From Thermodesulfobacteriota bacterium (GTDB lineage Bacteria; Desulfobacterota; Desulfobacteria; Desulfobacterales; JAUWMJ01), in assembly GCA_034189135.1 (NCBI GenBank), contig JAXHVO010000027.1:1-52328 (forward strand): a stretch of 52,328 bases of DNA, read 5' to 3'. Below, one piece after another: positions 5,547-51,113 of the stretch. The position numbers and the translations under genes were made by a program. Position 1 is the first letter of the stretch. Each line of letters starts with the position of its first letter. The notes below the pieces were generated by a model. It was given only the letters and a program-made list of their open reading frames with translations, was not told where the DNA came from and searched no databases.

Positions 5547-5622
5547 TTAGATACCGCCTGAACGAAAACTCCTGTTTTCGGTCATGCACTATCTTGTACC
5601 GCAGATTATAGTAGCTGTACAC

Positions 5623-5850
5623 GGCTTGAAACTTGAAATTGGAAAGTAGAAATTTGGGATAGCAGAACCGAGTTTAGAGATGGATGAATACAAACCGGCA
5701 TAGGCGTTATCAGATATGTTCTGGCACGATTTTTTTAAATATAACAAAAGTTAAAAACTCGGTCCAAAATTGACAATGTTCATCAACGGCAAAAAACATA
5801 TAGACTGAATTTCCAATTTCAATTTTCTAATTTCAACGTTCTATGAACAT
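5623..5850. repeat. 7-nt periodic inverted array (heptad locus 1)
   Basis: Left arm 5623-5657 reads as successive heptads ggcttga, aacttga, aattgga, aagtaga, aatttgg. The right arm (~5805-5848) read on the minus strand gives gaaatta, gaaaatt, gaaattg, gaaattc. The arms are therefore inverted and share one AT-rich word (ttGAAA). The ~150 nt between them is unique sequence. It fills the 349-nt gap between the permease and binding-protein genes and may fold or separate their expression. Confidence 0.6.
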
Positions 5851-11974: not shown

Positions 11975-12370
11975 TAGAAAATGTCCGCATAATAATCTTT
12001 TTCAGATTTCGGCTTTTATTGATATACAACTGGGTTAAGATTTTATCAACTCTCAACTTTGATGATGTCGTAAAAAGCTCAAATAAGACACTTTGTGGCA
12101 CTGTAAACTATAACAAATTATCAATCATATCGAAAGGCTATGATTTGGTTGTTTGAATATTGCTTGAACATCGAGTGATAAAATCGTTGAACCTATGCTG
12201 AGGAATCGAGGTGCTCTACCCGTCATAAATTGGCAGAATGTCTTATTCAAAATTCAGCGTTGAAGGTTCGATGTTGGACGTTCATCGCTTTTTAACAGTT
12301 CAACACATTCGATTGTTTTGCAAAAAGTCCTTGACCATTTCAACCCGCTGCCTGTAATCAAATCTCACTT
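11975..12370. repeat. Gap with 7-nt periodic array (heptad locus 3)
   Basis: About 400 nt without a gene, between divergent genes. 12253-12287 reads as heptads ttcagcg, ttgaagg, ttcgatg, ttggacg, ttcatcg. A weaker opposite arm lies near 12034-12066 (minus strand aaagttg, agagttg). Promoters for both neighbours must lie here, but none is distinct enough to call. Confidence 0.45.
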
Positions 12371-25206: not shown

Positions 25207-25213
25207 ATTTGTT

Positions 25214-25328
25214 CCGGGTTTCGGGTTACAGGTTGCGCGTTACGGGGTGCGGGTTGGGTGTTATGAAAAAGGATTGTTTTCAATTAACAGGTCACCACAC
25301 GTAACCCGCAACTCGTAACACAATCTTT
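25214..25328. repeat. 7-nt periodic inverted array (heptad locus 5)
   Basis: Left arm 25214-25262 reads ccgggtt, tcgggtt, acaggtt, gcgcgtt, acggggt, gcgggtt, gggtgtt. Right arm ~25298-25325 on the minus strand reads acgagtt, gcgggtt, acgtg. The shared word is NCGGGTT. It sits immediately upstream of the ftsK start codon, between ftsK and the RNase J gene. Confidence 0.65.
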
Positions 25329-29458: not shown

Positions 29459-29486
29459 CCATCTGGTAAATCCCGCTATGTGGGAC

Positions 29487-29594
29487 TGCGTTGAGCTGCA
29501 TTTCGTAATCATTCAACATACGAAAAGTGCATTTTATGATTAAAATTTGCACGCTTTTTTTATCACGCTGCTTTTTAGCGGGTTAATTTGAACT
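29487..29594. repeat. Dispersed intergenic repeat, copy B
   Basis: Matches the interior of the repeat at 22905-23060 in inverted orientation. 29490-29520 agrees at 29 of 31 nt with the reverse complement of 23001-23031. 29536-29593 matches the reverse complement of ~22925-22985, including the stretch gctttttagcggg. The 13-bp terminal repeats of copy A are not seen here, so this copy looks truncated. Confidence 0.6.
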
Positions 29595-29700
29595 TATCGC
29601 CGGGTTTTCCACAGCAGACCTTAAAAGATGGCCTGTTATTATCATGATTCAATCTTCGGGCAGGTCTTGCAAACAAGAAAAGCATACATGGGATGTGATA

Positions 29701-31205: not shown

Positions 31206-31395
31206 TGGTTGTAAGCGTTCCCAGTTGTCGGTTCACAGTTCACGGTTTTCTCAATGAACGATGCAACAACTCATGTATTTTGCATATTGATCTCAATTCT
31301 TAAATTAATTTTTTAAATCTTCGAAAAAGGGCCACATAATTCTCTTATACTTTTTATTTTTTCAACTGTGAACTGTATAACCGGTAACCGTAAAC
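31205..31395. repeat. 7-nt periodic inverted array (heptad locus 6)
   Basis: Left arm ~31214-31248 reads agcgttc, ccagttg, tcggttc, acagttc, acggttt. Right arm ~31360-31398 on the minus strand reads tttacgg, ttaccgg, ttataca, gttcaca. The shared words are around cGGTTCACAGTT. It fills the gap between two minus-strand genes. Confidence 0.6.
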
Positions 31396-33683: not shown

Positions 33684-33704
33684 ATGGTAAAAGTCCTGTG
33701 TGAT

Positions 33705-33805
33705 ATGAGTTACGGGTTATGTGTTACGCGTTGCGGATTACGGGTTTCCAATGGGATGGTTTCCTTTTTTATATCTCGTAACACGCAACTCGCAACATCA
33801 GCTTT
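33705..33805. repeat. 7-nt periodic inverted array (heptad locus 7)
   Basis: Left arm 33705-33746 is six consecutive heptads: atgagtt, acgggtt, atgtgtt, acgcgtt, gcggatt, acgggtt. Right arm ~33774-33798 on the minus strand reads gatgttg, cgagttg, cgtgtta. It is the clearest period-7 array in the window, placed between cysK-cysS and tmk. Confidence 0.7.
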
Positions 33806-33870
33806 CAACTTAAAAACCACATGTTGGCTGAGATCCGCAACAAATTTATGATATTGCCAAACACCCATGC

Positions 33871-34497: not shown

Positions 34498-34570
34498 AGT
34501 CGATTTGCCTACAATTTAACGTATCAGCTTTAGTTAGCAGCAACTTCTTTTAGTTTCATGCGATATTGCT

Positions 34571-34690
34571 GCGGGTTACGCGTTACGAGTTGCGTGTTGC
34601 CTGCCTGTACGTGTCCGCATACAGACAGACGAGATGTTAAACGGAAATAATTTTTATATCCCGTACCCCGTAACTCGCAACCCGTAACAC
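34571..34690. repeat. 7-nt periodic inverted array (heptad locus 8)
   Basis: Left arm 34571-34598: gcgggtt, acgcgtt, acgagtt, gcgtgtt. Right arm ~34658-34690 on the minus strand: gtgttac, gggttgc, gagttac, ggggtac. It uses the same word family as loci 5 and 7 (NCGNGTT). Lies between the exonuclease gene and tmk. Confidence 0.7.
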
Positions 34691-34758
34691 TTACGTGATA
34701 ACCAAACAAATAAGTTTAAAAAGACGCATTCCCGTAAGCGATAACTGTAGTTGTAAGG

Positions 34759-35709
34759 TTAATCCCCCTTCCCTCGGTAAAAATGACGCCCAAGCAGGCG
34801 ATGATATGAGGTCCACGATTCATTCGGATCTTCTGTAGCCATAAAATCGCGAATGCCATTTACCTTGGCATCGATTTCATCGATGTAGTTCAATAAAACA
34901 GCCTCTATTGTTTTGGGCGGCTCCGGTGAGCCGAATTCTCTTGTCCCGTGATGACTGATGATCATATGCCTCAGCAAAACGGCCTGGTCCGGTGGGAAAT
35001 CTTCAATGGCTTCGAGTTTTTCATCCAATATCATCACCCCGATAACAATATGGCTAAGGAGCCGGCCTTCGTCTGAATAGTCGATACTATATTTATAGTT
35101 AAATTCCCCGATCTTGCCGATATCATGAAGTATTGCCCCTGCAAGCAAAAGGTCCCGGTCAACGCCGCTGTAATGTCCGGCTATTCTGTCAGCCAGAAGC
35201 GCCATGGACAATGTATGCTCAAGGAGGCCACCGATATAGGCATGGTGCATTTTTTTTGCTGCCGGAGCGGTTTTAAATTTACGGACAAAATCCATGTCAT
35301 TAAAGAACGCTTCAAAAAGCTTTTTTATATGCCCTGCTTCCATGGAAGCCACGATTTTTAGAAGGCGCAGGAACATTTTATCGATATCACGACGTGTGGC
35401 TGGGAGAAAATCAGAGGGGTTGGTCGAATCTGCTGGAATGGTGGTCATATTTTTCACCACGAATTGAAGCACCCCCTTGTATTCGGAAACCGAACCTTTA
35501 GCCTGCACAAAGTCACCGGAGGTTGTGGCTGCGGATATCTCATCAACCCTGTCCCATATTACCCCCTTTAGACGGCCGGTTTTATCGGATAGGGTGATAT
35601 TTAGAAAATTATTCCCATCCCGTTTTTGAGCCATTGCTTTTTCTGATAATACAAAAATATCTTCCACCAAATCTCCGGCCCTTAAATCCTTGATAAATAG
35701 TTTTTTCAT
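34759..35709 (-). CDS. YhaM-family 3'-5' exoribonuclease (OB-fold plus HD domain)
   Basis: 316 residues. N-terminal OB-fold nucleic-acid-binding domain (~13-90, GDFVQAKGSVSEYKGVLQF), then an HD domain with HHAYIGGLLEHTLSM and the metal-binding HDIGK (~190-194), later SHHGTREFGSPEPP. This layout is that of YhaM/CBF1 nucleases. It probably degrades RNA or single-stranded DNA from the 3' end with metal. The start overlaps the surE stop by 4 nt, so it is translated with surE. Confidence 0.88.
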   Translation of the reverse strand: MKKLFIKDLRAGDLVEDIFVLSEKAMAQKRDGNNFLNITLSDKTGRLKGVIWDRVDEISAATTSGDFVQAKGSVSEYKGVLQFVVKNMTTIPADSTNPSDFLPATRRDIDKMFLRLLKIVASMEAGHIKKLFEAFFNDMDFVRKFKTAPAAKKMHHAYIGGLLEHTLSMALLADRIAGHYSGVDRDLLLAGAILHDIGKIGEFNYKYSIDYSDEGRLLSHIVIGVMILDEKLEAIEDFPPDQAVLLRHMIISHHGTREFGSPEPPKTIEAVLLNYIDEIDAKVNGIRDFMATEDPNESWTSYHRLLGRHFYRGKGD

Positions 35710-48912: not shown

Positions 48913-49119
48913 ATGAATATATTTACCGCTATTTTGCATAAAGAAGAAGATTTCTATGTGGCACTATGTCCCGAGGTAGGAACGGCCAGCCAGGGGGAGA
49001 CCATTGAAAAGGCTGTAAAAAATCTCCAGGAAGCGACAGAGCTTTATCTGGAAGAATTTCCCATGGATCAAACGTCCCGCTCACTTATGACCACCTTTGA
49101 AGTGTCAGCCCATGCCTGA
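48913..49119 (+). CDS. hicB: HicB-like antitoxin
   Basis: 68 residues, the short HicB form: a partial RNase-H-like fold beginning MNIFTAILHKEEDFYVALCP with the typical VGTASQGETIEKAVKNLQEATELYLEE-like helix segment, and no C-terminal DNA-binding domain. It neutralises the HicA toxin encoded immediately downstream (8-nt overlap). Order is antitoxin first. Preceded by a good sigma-70 promoter. Confidence 0.88.
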   Translation: MNIFTAILHKEEDFYVALCPEVGTASQGETIEKAVKNLQEATELYLEEFPMDQTSRSLMTTFEVSAHA

Positions 49120-49336
49120 ACTTCCCAGAATATCAGGCAATGAAGCCATTAACGCATTCAAAAGACTCGGTTTTTATCAGGCACGCCAGAAAGGTAGCCA
49201 CGTTGTGATGCGCAAGGATGACCGAGGATGTGTCATACCTTTGCATAAAAATCTTGCCATTGGAACACTAAGAAACGCAATCCGACAGGCCGGCGTTTCC
49301 GTTGACGAATTTGTTGTTGCCTATAAAGAGAAATAA
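49112..49336 (+). CDS. hicA: HicA toxin (mRNA interferase)
   Basis: 74 residues from the ATG at 49112; an in-frame ATG at 49097 lies deeper inside hicB. dsRBD-like HicA fold: RISGNEAINAFKRLGF, then GSHVVMRKDD with the catalytic His, and VIPLHKNLAIGTLRNAIRQAG. It cleaves mRNA when not bound by HicB. Intact, with no frameshift. Confidence 0.92.
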   Translation: MPELPRISGNEAINAFKRLGFYQARQKGSHVVMRKDDRGCVIPLHKNLAIGTLRNAIRQAGVSVDEFVVAYKEK

Positions 49337-49540
49337 TCCCCCCAGAAGTCGCTTGGCTGTTTTAATTTCCGCCCGAACGATTAAGATTTCAATTATCCGG
49401 TTGCTGGTCAGATGTTATTTCCCACGCTTTTATCGTAATATTGGGTTGCGGATCACGGGCCCATCAAATTATAACTCAAGTTTCGCACCCCGGTTTGGCG
49501 AAAAGAAATGTCCTGATGGCACGTAAAATATAAAATCAGA

Positions 49541-49746
49541 TGTGAATCGAAACGGTTGTATTCTTTTCTGTAAGGGGATATGTGGGTCATCTGTTCCACC
49601 TTTTCGCAGTGTCCGGGTATTTGGGATAGACCGTCCTTTTTATATTGTTTAGCAACGGGTAGACTTTATCCCAAATATCCGGACACGCTGCAACCGATTT
49701 AATTCATATCCCCTGGAAGAAAATAATATAACTGTCTCGATTCACA
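49541..49746. repeat. Long imperfect palindrome (REPIN/MITE-like)
   Basis: The left arm begins gtgaatcga (49542) and the right arm ends tcgattcac (49745). Matching inner blocks include ggggatatg/catatcccc and gtgtccgggtatttgggata against tatcccaaatatccggacac. Each arm is ~90 nt with a ~35-nt loop. It is enclosed by a 21-bp perfect inverted repeat at 49471-49491 and 49796-49816. A plausible substrate of the adjacent RAYT transposase. Confidence 0.75.
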
Positions 49747-49822
49747 CCTTCAACACCAATCGGTGCCTTAAAAATTTATGCTCCACCGTAGATAAGGGGT
49801 GCGAAACTTGAGTTATAAGATT

Positions 49823-50830
49823 CTATTTATCGATTAGTGAGTATTCATTTTCTGACGCTATTTGCTCTCCACGCTGAACACTCATGCTGACCGCCGGTTG
49901 CGAGATATTAAGCTTCAAAGCCAAATCCGTCATGGTAAACCCCAACTCCCTGACCGCCCAGTAACACAAAAGACTTCTTGCTTTGACTTTTATCGGCTGC
50001 TTTCCGGGTTGAAATATATCTTCCGGGTGAATGGAAAAAATATGAGCCACTCTATCTGAAAGTTTATCTATATTATAACCCTTTGATTTCAGATCATACT
50101 TTCGGTCCAGAGCCTCATTGGCAGACCTTAAAACCCTTTCAACAAAATCAGAATCGCCCAGCACACGCTCGTCACTTTTAGAGTGAATCTTAGCTCGCCG
50201 AAGAGATTTGAGCATAGTCCAGCCGCCACTGCTTCGGATGAGGCCGCCTCCGGTGAGGTCATGACGCTTCCCTTGCTGGATACCTTTCTGAACGAATATT
50301 TTATAGCGGCGTCGCGCTGTTGATCTGTTTTCATGGAACAGTTTCAGCACATAATTATCATCCTGCCATTCTTTTTTCTTGTTACCCATAATAACGGCGT
50401 GTCCGCAAAAAGAATATTTGTCCAGTGCCTTGATGTCCGCAACTAACTTGGCTCGAATCGGATTAAGGTGGATATAGCGGACCAGTTCCAATAGGTAGGT
50501 ATCTTCCTGACACAGAATCGATTTGTAACGGTTCTGAAATAGCTGGCCGCTGCGACGATGTCGGCGGTTATAATACATGGCATGTCCGGTGAGAAGCCTG
50601 CGCATCACAGTGGAAAGCGGACAAGCACCTGTACGCAATAAAAGGTGAAAGTGGTTGGGAATCAGCGCCCATGAGAAGCATTGGGTATCGGTTTCTGAAA
50701 GCACCTTTCCCAGCCGATCCAGAAAATGAATCCGGTCGACGTCATCATCAAATATGTTTCTTCGCTCGATGCCTCTGGCGATAATATGATGGAGGGCACC
50801 CGGAGCATCAATACGGGCTTTACGTTGCAT
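49823..50830 (-). CDS. REP-associated tyrosine transposase (Y1, RAYT) with C-terminal HTH
   Basis: 335 residues. The Y1 HUH domain shows HFH at 60-62 (PNHFHLLLRTG) and the catalytic Tyr Y119 (VRYIHLNPIRA). N-terminus RKARIDAPGALHHIIARG is typical of the group. The C-terminal ~90 residues (SKGYNIDKLSDRVAHIF, YWAVRELGFTMTDLALKLN) resemble a DnaA-C-type helix-turn-helix, common in deltaproteobacterial RAYTs. Such enzymes nick hairpin-forming REP DNA; here a long palindrome lies just downstream of its stop. Appears intact. Confidence 0.92.
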   Translation of the reverse strand: MQRKARIDAPGALHHIIARGIERRNIFDDDVDRIHFLDRLGKVLSETDTQCFSWALIPNHFHLLLRTGACPLSTVMRRLLTGHAMYYNRRHRRSGQLFQNRYKSILCQEDTYLLELVRYIHLNPIRAKLVADIKALDKYSFCGHAVIMGNKKKEWQDDNYVLKLFHENRSTARRRYKIFVQKGIQQGKRHDLTGGGLIRSSGGWTMLKSLRRAKIHSKSDERVLGDSDFVERVLRSANEALDRKYDLKSKGYNIDKLSDRVAHIFSIHPEDIFQPGKQPIKVKARSLLCYWAVRELGFTMTDLALKLNISQPAVSMSVQRGEQIASENEYSLIDK

Positions 50831-50892
50831 GGTAGGACTATATCATATATCAGATAAAGTAGAAACTTATAATTTTATGGGCCCGCAACCCA

Positions 50893-51113
50893 GGATCGAT
50901 ATTGGCCTGCTTCAAACCGAGGATCTTTTCAAAAGTCAAAATTATCAGTTTGAGCCGCTGAGCTTTGAGATTCTAAAAACCGCTTCCGAGATCGATGACA
51001 TCCCGGAGTTGCATGACCGGCTTATTGCCGCAACCGCCGGATATCTTGACTTGCCAATTATCACCAATGATCCTGTCATCAGAGATTCTCAATTTGTTGA
51101 AGTTCTGGAATGA
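50893..51113 (+). pseudogene. Truncated PIN-domain (VapC-like) gene, 3' part
   Basis: The last ~70 residues match the C-terminal half of PIN toxins: FEILKTASEIDDIPELHDRLIAAT-like segment with the acidic Asp (HDRLIAATA) and ITNDPVIRDS with the final Asp. The N-terminal half, with the first catalytic Asp/Glu, is missing; the frame runs into the RAYT element end at ~50892. I did not find the missing half on the other side of the element. Confidence 0.65.

Follow-up and report, generated by a model that had tools for sequence, protein, structure and literature searches.

The window analysed here, a stretch of 52,328 nucleotides from a Thermodesulfobacteriota bacterium (contig JAXHVO010000027.1 of assembly GCA_034189135.1), carries near its right border an open reading frame of 335 aa on the reverse strand (49823..50830) that encodes a Y1 (REP-type) transposase. 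Its Y1_Tnp domain matches Pfam PF01797 with 38.9 bits against a cut-off of 23 (E 1.1e-9). With the NCBIfam equivalog model NF047646, the protein scores 64.8 bits (E 7.5e-18), which is below the cut-off of 80 and makes it a related non-member; "RAYT" is therefore used here as a label of relationship only. The HFH in IPNHFHLLL and a tyrosine in LLELVRYIHLNP, both read by eye in the unaligned protein, are candidates for the HUH motif and the catalytic tyrosine. In the assembly (4.6 Mb in 140 contigs), no other full-length match of this type was found, the two further matches being fragments.

The gene lies between two inverted ends, delimited from the sequence and from the ends of relatives. The left end (3', gene-distal; 49442..49474, forward strand) reads TGGGTTGCGGATCACGGGCCCATCAAATTATAA and consists of a tag GGTTGCG, an extra GATCACG and GGCCCATCAAATTATAA. 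The right end (5', gene-proximal; 50867..50892, reverse strand) reads TGGGTTGCGGGCCCATAAAATTATAA as its reverse complement, that is, a single tag GGTTGCG followed by GGCCCATAAAATTATAA. Since 25 of the 26 paired positions are alike and the left end has 7 extra bases, we could confirm, with small changes of coordinates, a first-pass annotation in which the two ends matched except for a 7-nt unit present on the left. Its reading of these bases as one heptad unit fits their number but less well their letters: GATCACG, whose phase is ambiguous, shares no more than 4 of 7 positions with the tag, and when read as ATCACGG it agrees at 5 of 7 with GTTRCGN, the word of the dispersed arrays described below. 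The GTTGCGG at both ends of this copy is made of the outer GGTTG and the start of the usual palindrome CGGGACGCCC, whose ACG is absent at both ends.

A dispersed repeat of ~340 bp (49475..49812), absent from the first-pass annotation, is nested between the left end and the gene and splits that end. It has inverted ends (CTCAAGTTTCGCACCCC) and is bordered by TTATAA at 49469-49474 and 49813-49818; TTATAA borders the element on both sides in two copies that we read. A search with this element returned 80 match rows, many of them partial or self-complementary. Of these, 19 span almost the full query: the window copy itself and 18 others with identities of 78-92%. Further copies lie on contigs C5, C138, C8, C81 and others of this genome, and no gene was noticed in the element.

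We conclude that 49442-50892 holds a single Y1/RAYT element, bounded by inverted ends and probably inactive: because ACG is missing at both ends and the left end is split by the nested repeat, the element is probably not moving. DNA folding of its two ends gave z values of -0.43 and -0.27, and its left flank, sought for an empty site, was not found in either of the two genomes of the same genus (G001 and G002). To the left of the element, at 48913-49333, lie a HicA toxin gene (PF07927, above cut-off) and a HicB-like partner below cut-off. Beside the right end, the frame 50895-51113, which by eye we take to resemble the C-terminal part of a PIN/VapC toxin, gave no match in a Pfam search; the RAYT element may have landed in or beside this frame.

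Passages of PMC3733652 describe RAYT genes as lying between GTAG repeats or long inverted repeats. Like these IS200/IS605-like Y1 elements, the window element has a Y1 domain and a single gene between inverted ends. However, it is flanked by GGTTGCG + GGCCCAT inverted repeats and not by GTAG-tagged REPs, and the long inverted repeats of its relatives are of the GGGACG type. The tag is particular to the genome and can be repeated in tandem.

The GGTTGCG tag at RAYT-type ends

Searching this genome with the inner end gave 15 matches, one of them the window right end, against 1 for the reversed control. Further copies of the element's ends are thus dispersed in the genome, a trait that groups the element with RAYTs. 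At the ten inner-end places displayed, the tag is GGTTGCG in 7 and GTTTGCG, GATTGCA and TCTTGCG in one each; at all ten, which were found by the inner end alone, the fourth word position is G. With a strict pattern, which also missed the split partner in the window, no partner end was found within 1.5 kb in ten loci. Moreover, a second inner end type (TTGATATATTGA, as in the relative L034) bears the same GGTTGCG tag.

Most RAYT-type ends in this genome have one tag unit. Two tandem units are present at C73:19149, C73:24830, C9:6301 and C80:2932 (AATTGCG twice), three at C73:15946-15971, with a diverged triple near C73:26150, and the window left end has two, the second diverged. One-unit differences therefore recur at RAYT-type ends, although four of the seven multi-unit cases lie on C73 within a single cluster of related repeats and thus are not independent events. 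A strict unit-counting script gave 30 rows, some of them duplicate registers (26 with one unit, 1 with two, 3 with none), and the remaining multi-unit ends were read mostly by eye. The pattern GGTTGCGGGACGNCC with up to 2 mismatches has 53 matches against 40 for its reversed control, which is near background; the tag evidence is taken from places with the inner end or in fetched clusters and not from this pattern alone. Given the tandem GGTTGCG tags at other ends, we dropped the idea that GTTGCGG at the RAYT end is unrelated to heptads at RAYT ends.

In the relatives, we analysed 35 RAYT loci, 29 from one search and 6 of the 7 from a second. An alignment recovered inverted ends in 25 of them. 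Of the other ten loci, several of which are cut genes, 9 fell below the required score and 1 lacked a flank. These ends are built of a tag, GGGACG(C/T)(C/T)C and an AT-rich core, and script patterns found GGACG-type letters at the 5' side in 25/25 and at the 3' side in 22/25. In assemblies of Desulfobacterales and related groups, the nearest relatives, with 80-85% protein identity, mostly have ends of the type CTTCCGGGACGCCCC... or CGGGACGCCCAT..., and where they have CTTC the window copy has an outer TGGGTTG. The comparison of flanks across relatives that the first-pass annotation had called for bears out the inverted ends, but the heptad tag GGTTGCG was seen in none of the 25 loci of other genomes. 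One further relative does carry it: L104, in another assembly, has GGGGTTG at the single end seen, with GGGGTTGC ahead of the palindrome.

Among the 48 end sites that a script picked in the 25 loci, at least 2 of which (L038 5' and L040 3') differ from the aligned end, one reaches 5/7 at lag 7 and is of low complexity; GTTGC is absent from the 14 bases printed at each of them. RAYT ends without the GGTTGCG tag are also those of four array-bearing genomes, G076 (one end seen), G088, G029 and G026. In G002, which has many arrays, the RAYT contig has another end type (...GATTAATGGGGGACG) with a 19-nt period, and the tag was not seen on this contig, where the gene's own ends are ambiguous. At L325 (G002:C341), RAYT-type letters GATTAATGGGGGACGTTGC are repeated with a 19-nt period. 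Tandem duplication at RAYT-type ends may therefore occur elsewhere with other unit lengths.

The gain or loss of units at the ends, as the first-pass annotation had it, is thus supported by the recurring one-unit differences of this genome, but was not seen in the 25 loci of other genomes. Either the Y1 enzyme or slippage in a short repeat would add or drop a tag unit. Alternatively, the 7-nt difference could have come about by drift or slippage after the copy had died, long ago, with a likeness to a heptad that arose by chance, a possibility that we take seriously but lean against. The poor match of GATCACG to the tag and the decayed, split state of the copy are consistent with it. The 14/16 agreement of the left end with the array at 33729-33744, to which the first-pass annotation had pointed, is real; however, the comparison was picked after the fact, and when 6000 random 16-mers were drawn from the array-masked window, 6 were as close to one or other 16-mer of the arrays. 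Among 27 GTTGCG sites outside arrays, only the left RAYT end reaches 14/16. Arguing against drift, extra 7-nt units are present at several other ends of this genome and are not seen at the ends of other genomes (1 borderline of 48).

Dispersed heptad arrays and the RAYT

The word GTTRCGNGTTRCGNGTTRCG, with up to 2 mismatches, has 145 + 128 matches in this genome (overlaps counted) against 1 + 3 for the reversed control. We examined 38 array loci, 35 fetched and 3 from the window. Both arms are present in 28 of them, with the GTT side first in 28/28, and one arm in 10. The cores of the pairs measure ~35 nt or 100-200 nt, and longer conserved flanks surround many loci. Within the word, position 4 is A in 44% and G in 44% of units, and position 7, which was left free when units were picked, is G in 44%, A in 37%, T in 12% and C in 7%. 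The other five positions are 93-98% constant, but this owes something to the way units were picked, which allowed no more than 1 mismatch to GTTRCG.

Of the GTTRCGN inverted pairs in the window, the one at 25211..25319 differs in unit number among this genome (G000), G001 and G002, so that units turn over at an orthologous site. The pair at 33709..33796, number 7 of the first-pass annotation, lies in a dispersed repeat (~33704-33857, type B), and the pair at 34575..34688, found at the same place in G001, in another (~34508-34763, type A). An inverted pair with a different word, GTTCACG, occupies 31217..31395; the element is absent from G001, which has only a short, unalignable spacer there in which a target duplication could not be read. 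No four-helix-bundle gene is present in the displayed type A, B and C repeats. A known RNA family was rejected for the arrays, as an Rfam search of eight array loci returned only three microRNA models, all sub-threshold. Another dispersed repeat, of ~110 bp, lies at 29486-29595 and has many matches in both same-genus genomes.

We compared the distribution of arrays, RAYT and four-helix-bundle genes (S23p, PF05635) over 96 genomes, this one and 95 relatives, of which 2 (G001 and G002) belong to the same genus. The array word, with up to 1 mismatch, was found in 20 genomes, a RAYT match in 72 and a PF05635 match in 72. First, RAYT matches occur in 18/20 array-bearing and 54/76 other genomes (Fisher p 0.144), and strong ones in 12/20 and 29/76 (p 0.126). 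Second, the figures for PF05635 are identical to those for RAYT (18/20 and 54/76). We therefore rejected the presence of a RAYT as a predictor of GTTRCGN arrays, the association being non-significant and PF05635 doing no better; since both genes co-occur equally with the arrays, presence alone favours neither. Third, G001, which is 75% complete, has 32 array matches per Mb compared to 35 here, and no close RAYT (distant Y1 matches only, best E 1.4e-12). Also, a small number of arrays is present in G078 and G084, neither of which has a Y1 match.

The first-pass annotation had linked the transposase to the heptad family and suggested that the arrays may serve it as REP-like substrates, with one unit gained or lost per event; on this view the Y1/RAYT protein would recognise the heptad GTTGCGG. 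The one to three GGTTGCG units at RAYT-type ends of this genome are compatible with the array word GTTRCGN, and the end of L104 shows that such letters precede the palindrome in another assembly too. However, RAYT-type letters lie within 120 nt of only one of the 38 array loci, L081, which is itself a RAYT-type repeat. Moreover, the invariant G at the fourth position of the tag differs from the even mixture of A and G in the array units, the four array-bearing genomes named above have untagged RAYT ends, and G001 reaches the same array density with no close RAYT. A role of the dispersed arrays as RAYT substrates is thus not supported, and recognition of the heptad by the RAYT appears improbable. 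Position decides where co-occurrence does not, as arrays adjoin four-helix-bundle genes.

G076, of another family, is the genome richest in arrays. In eight stretches viewed by eye, with one ORF list, no four-helix-bundle gene was noticed between its arrays. By eye, arrays of one word are nested in arrays of another at L267 and L268, and arrays fill the spacers on either side of tmk, beside cysS-like and surE-like genes, like in the window.

Inverted word arrays around four-helix-bundle genes

One array pair of this genome, L075, encloses a four-helix-bundle gene (TIGR02436). The genome has 11 PF05635 rows, 10 of them above cut-off, with two (on C56) apparently parts of one gene; for the C65 copy, whose word is GTTRCGN, TIGR02436 gives 93.8 bits against a cut-off of 24. 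The inverted words seen on their flanks are GTTRCGN, TTGAAAC, ACATCGA, GTCAGTT and an 8-nt word common to several copies. We assembled 118 loci, made of 9 of the 11 rows here, 29 new loci from a further search and 80 more chosen among the E-value-ordered matches it listed; places near contig ends were skipped and one locus was dropped for a missing flank. A locus passed when the inverted alignment score was at least 15 and at least 13/21 period matches were found on both sides, with periods of 5-12 allowed. These thresholds were fixed after the first 38 loci had been seen, and 29/37 of these and 56/80 of the later ones pass.

Inverted short-period arrays flank 85/117 four-helix-bundle loci, compared to 1/108 for a distal control ~600-800 nt off within these loci and to 1 of the 31 RAYT genes used out of 36. 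The complementary ends around the gene that characterize S23p elements are therefore present in 85 loci, with 32 failing. The period is 7 in 63 of the 85 passing loci, 8 in 17 and 9 in 5. Among the failing loci, strong arrays stand on either side of the gene in L150, L153, L181 and L208 but are not inverted copies of each other, and L198, L213, L216 and L219 have no arrays. On named plasmids (36 records with a match, 16 examined among the 30 listed, with slightly different windows), 12/16 loci pass, 11 of the 15 cyanobacterial ones and one from Azospirillum, against 0/16 for the control; a part of the plasmid loci seem to be copies within a single family.

The word varies between genes. When the majority word of one arm is compared with that of the other, no more than 1 base differs in 53/85 loci, including 19 in which the two are identical. 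Between genomes, protein identity and word similarity are correlated (r 0.416, 0/1000 permutations as high, 62 period-7 loci; 4 of the 85 loci were left out for short reading frames), a correlation also expected from plain co-inheritance, which the permutation test cannot tell apart from recognition. The word GTTRCGN itself belongs to two elements with 81% identical proteins, L112 in this genome and L218 in G001.

The PF05635 rows of this genome place no such gene inside the window, whose arrays are thus assigned by word and by a match to L113 only. In blastn, 5605..5848 (forward strand; word TTGAAAC/TTGGAAA) matches the four-helix-bundle element L113 (G000:C74) at 82% over 157 columns including the array and the gene start, and at 76% over 95 columns at the other end; it is an internally deleted copy of that element. 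A single arm at 12258..12308 has the word of the element L114 (GTTCGAT..., 78% over 51 columns). From these likenesses in sequence, we read the window arrays as gene-less relatives of four-helix-bundle elements.

Could the arms act by base pairing, in the transcript or in single-stranded DNA as a long hairpin, and not through recognition of a word? Their inversion would suit this, as would the Coxiella intervening sequence, whose 28-bp terminal stem is cut by RNase III according to a passage of PMC4990558. However, native arms pair worse than swapped ones (mean -24.75 vs -26.90 kcal/mol for 28-nt duplexes at 24 loci; 99% of permutations paired better), a result that speaks against a simple hairpin without settling the matter. 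Also, at the 34575 locus the differences between G000 and G001 fall mainly at variable positions, with no compensation seen by eye. Pairing as the function of the arms is therefore rather doubtful.

As for the tag, the RAYT of this lineage might have landed in, or next to, a four-helix-bundle array and retained its GTTGCGG units as a new tag, which would account for the word that both have in common. Consistent with such a capture, the tag is shared by two inner end types of this genome whose relatives in other genomes differ in their outer letters, and some ends have two or three units. On the other hand, the tag is inverted at both window ends, which is not expected from one insertion into one array, and its units lack the variation of array units. 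Furthermore, the two inner types occur together in one composite repeat on C73 and so may not be independent. We regard capture as unlikely.

Our preferred reading, which we consider probable, is that the window holds a Y1/RAYT copy and a separate heptad-array system tied to four-helix-bundle genes. RAYT-type ends here carry the tag GGTTGCG, at times in tandem, this copy's ends having one and two units. The arrays are, on this reading, inverted pairs of 7-9-nt tandem words around S23p/IVP genes, or gene-less, some of them deletion derivatives. The four-helix-bundle protein may recognise its element's word, with one binding site per unit, and the arrays may delimit a unit that is mobile, or was so in the past, and that some enzyme would move. 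We presume, from a solved relative, that this protein forms a ring, and that it could bind as one. The positional rule joining arrays to genes, with a protein-specific word, leads to a binding experiment bearing on S23p function and on the spread of heptamers. The changing copy number of the tag at RAYT ends offers a small, testable hint of how Y1 enzymes choose or rewrite their ends.

Heptamer repeats have long been known in cyanobacteria and other bacteria. We put forward, tentatively, that S23p genes are widespread word-marked mobile elements in which protein and word co-diverge, that genomes would fill with gene-less arrays of private words, of which the cyanobacterial and other bacterial heptamers would be traces, and that the RAYT here adopted one such word as its tag. 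In the literature searched, with subscription journals mostly outside it, we found no description of inverted word arrays around four-helix-bundle genes.

Several known systems resemble parts of this one. The 23S rRNA intervening sequences have the same protein family (PF05635, TIGR02436) in a small gene between complementary ends, and part of PMC4990558 reports three or two GACAGAT heptamers, by strain, before the S23p gene of Coxiella. In contrast, both ends are here tandem arrays of a 7-9-nt word, many arrays are gene-less, and the annotated neighbours of 15/16 plasmid loci are protein genes, with rRNA absent, in an annotation table that omits rRNA genes. A sequence search of the PDB (E up to 0.01) had 2gsc as its sole match (E 0.0011), which a passage of PMC10053308 relates to Avd (4DWL), so that the four-helix-bundle protein is related to this accessory protein of diversity-generating retroelements. 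The TAACTGA heptamers of giant sulfur bacteria, cyanobacteria and Bacteroidetes are, in sections of PMC4679880, intergenic tandem arrays of 7-nt units that are dispersed by no evident mechanism; unlike the arrays here, they are mainly direct repeats right before start codons. The available text of that paper has 0 matches to "four helix", "S23" or "intervening sequence", and the portions available of PMC4990558, PMC11270868 and PMC4679880 leave open the function of S23p/IVP and the spread of dispersed heptamers.

Two observations concern individual elements. The 8-nt-word copies of this genome (L108-L110 and L115-L118) have by eye common outer letters, ~CCGATTAGTTGTAGTTAATT on the left and ~TTCTCCAACTAAATTGGAGAAGAACC on the right, which may define the true borders of these elements. 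On a plasmid of Pseudanabaena galeata (L252), a four-helix-bundle gene with 7-nt inverted arrays lies between cas6 and cas4.
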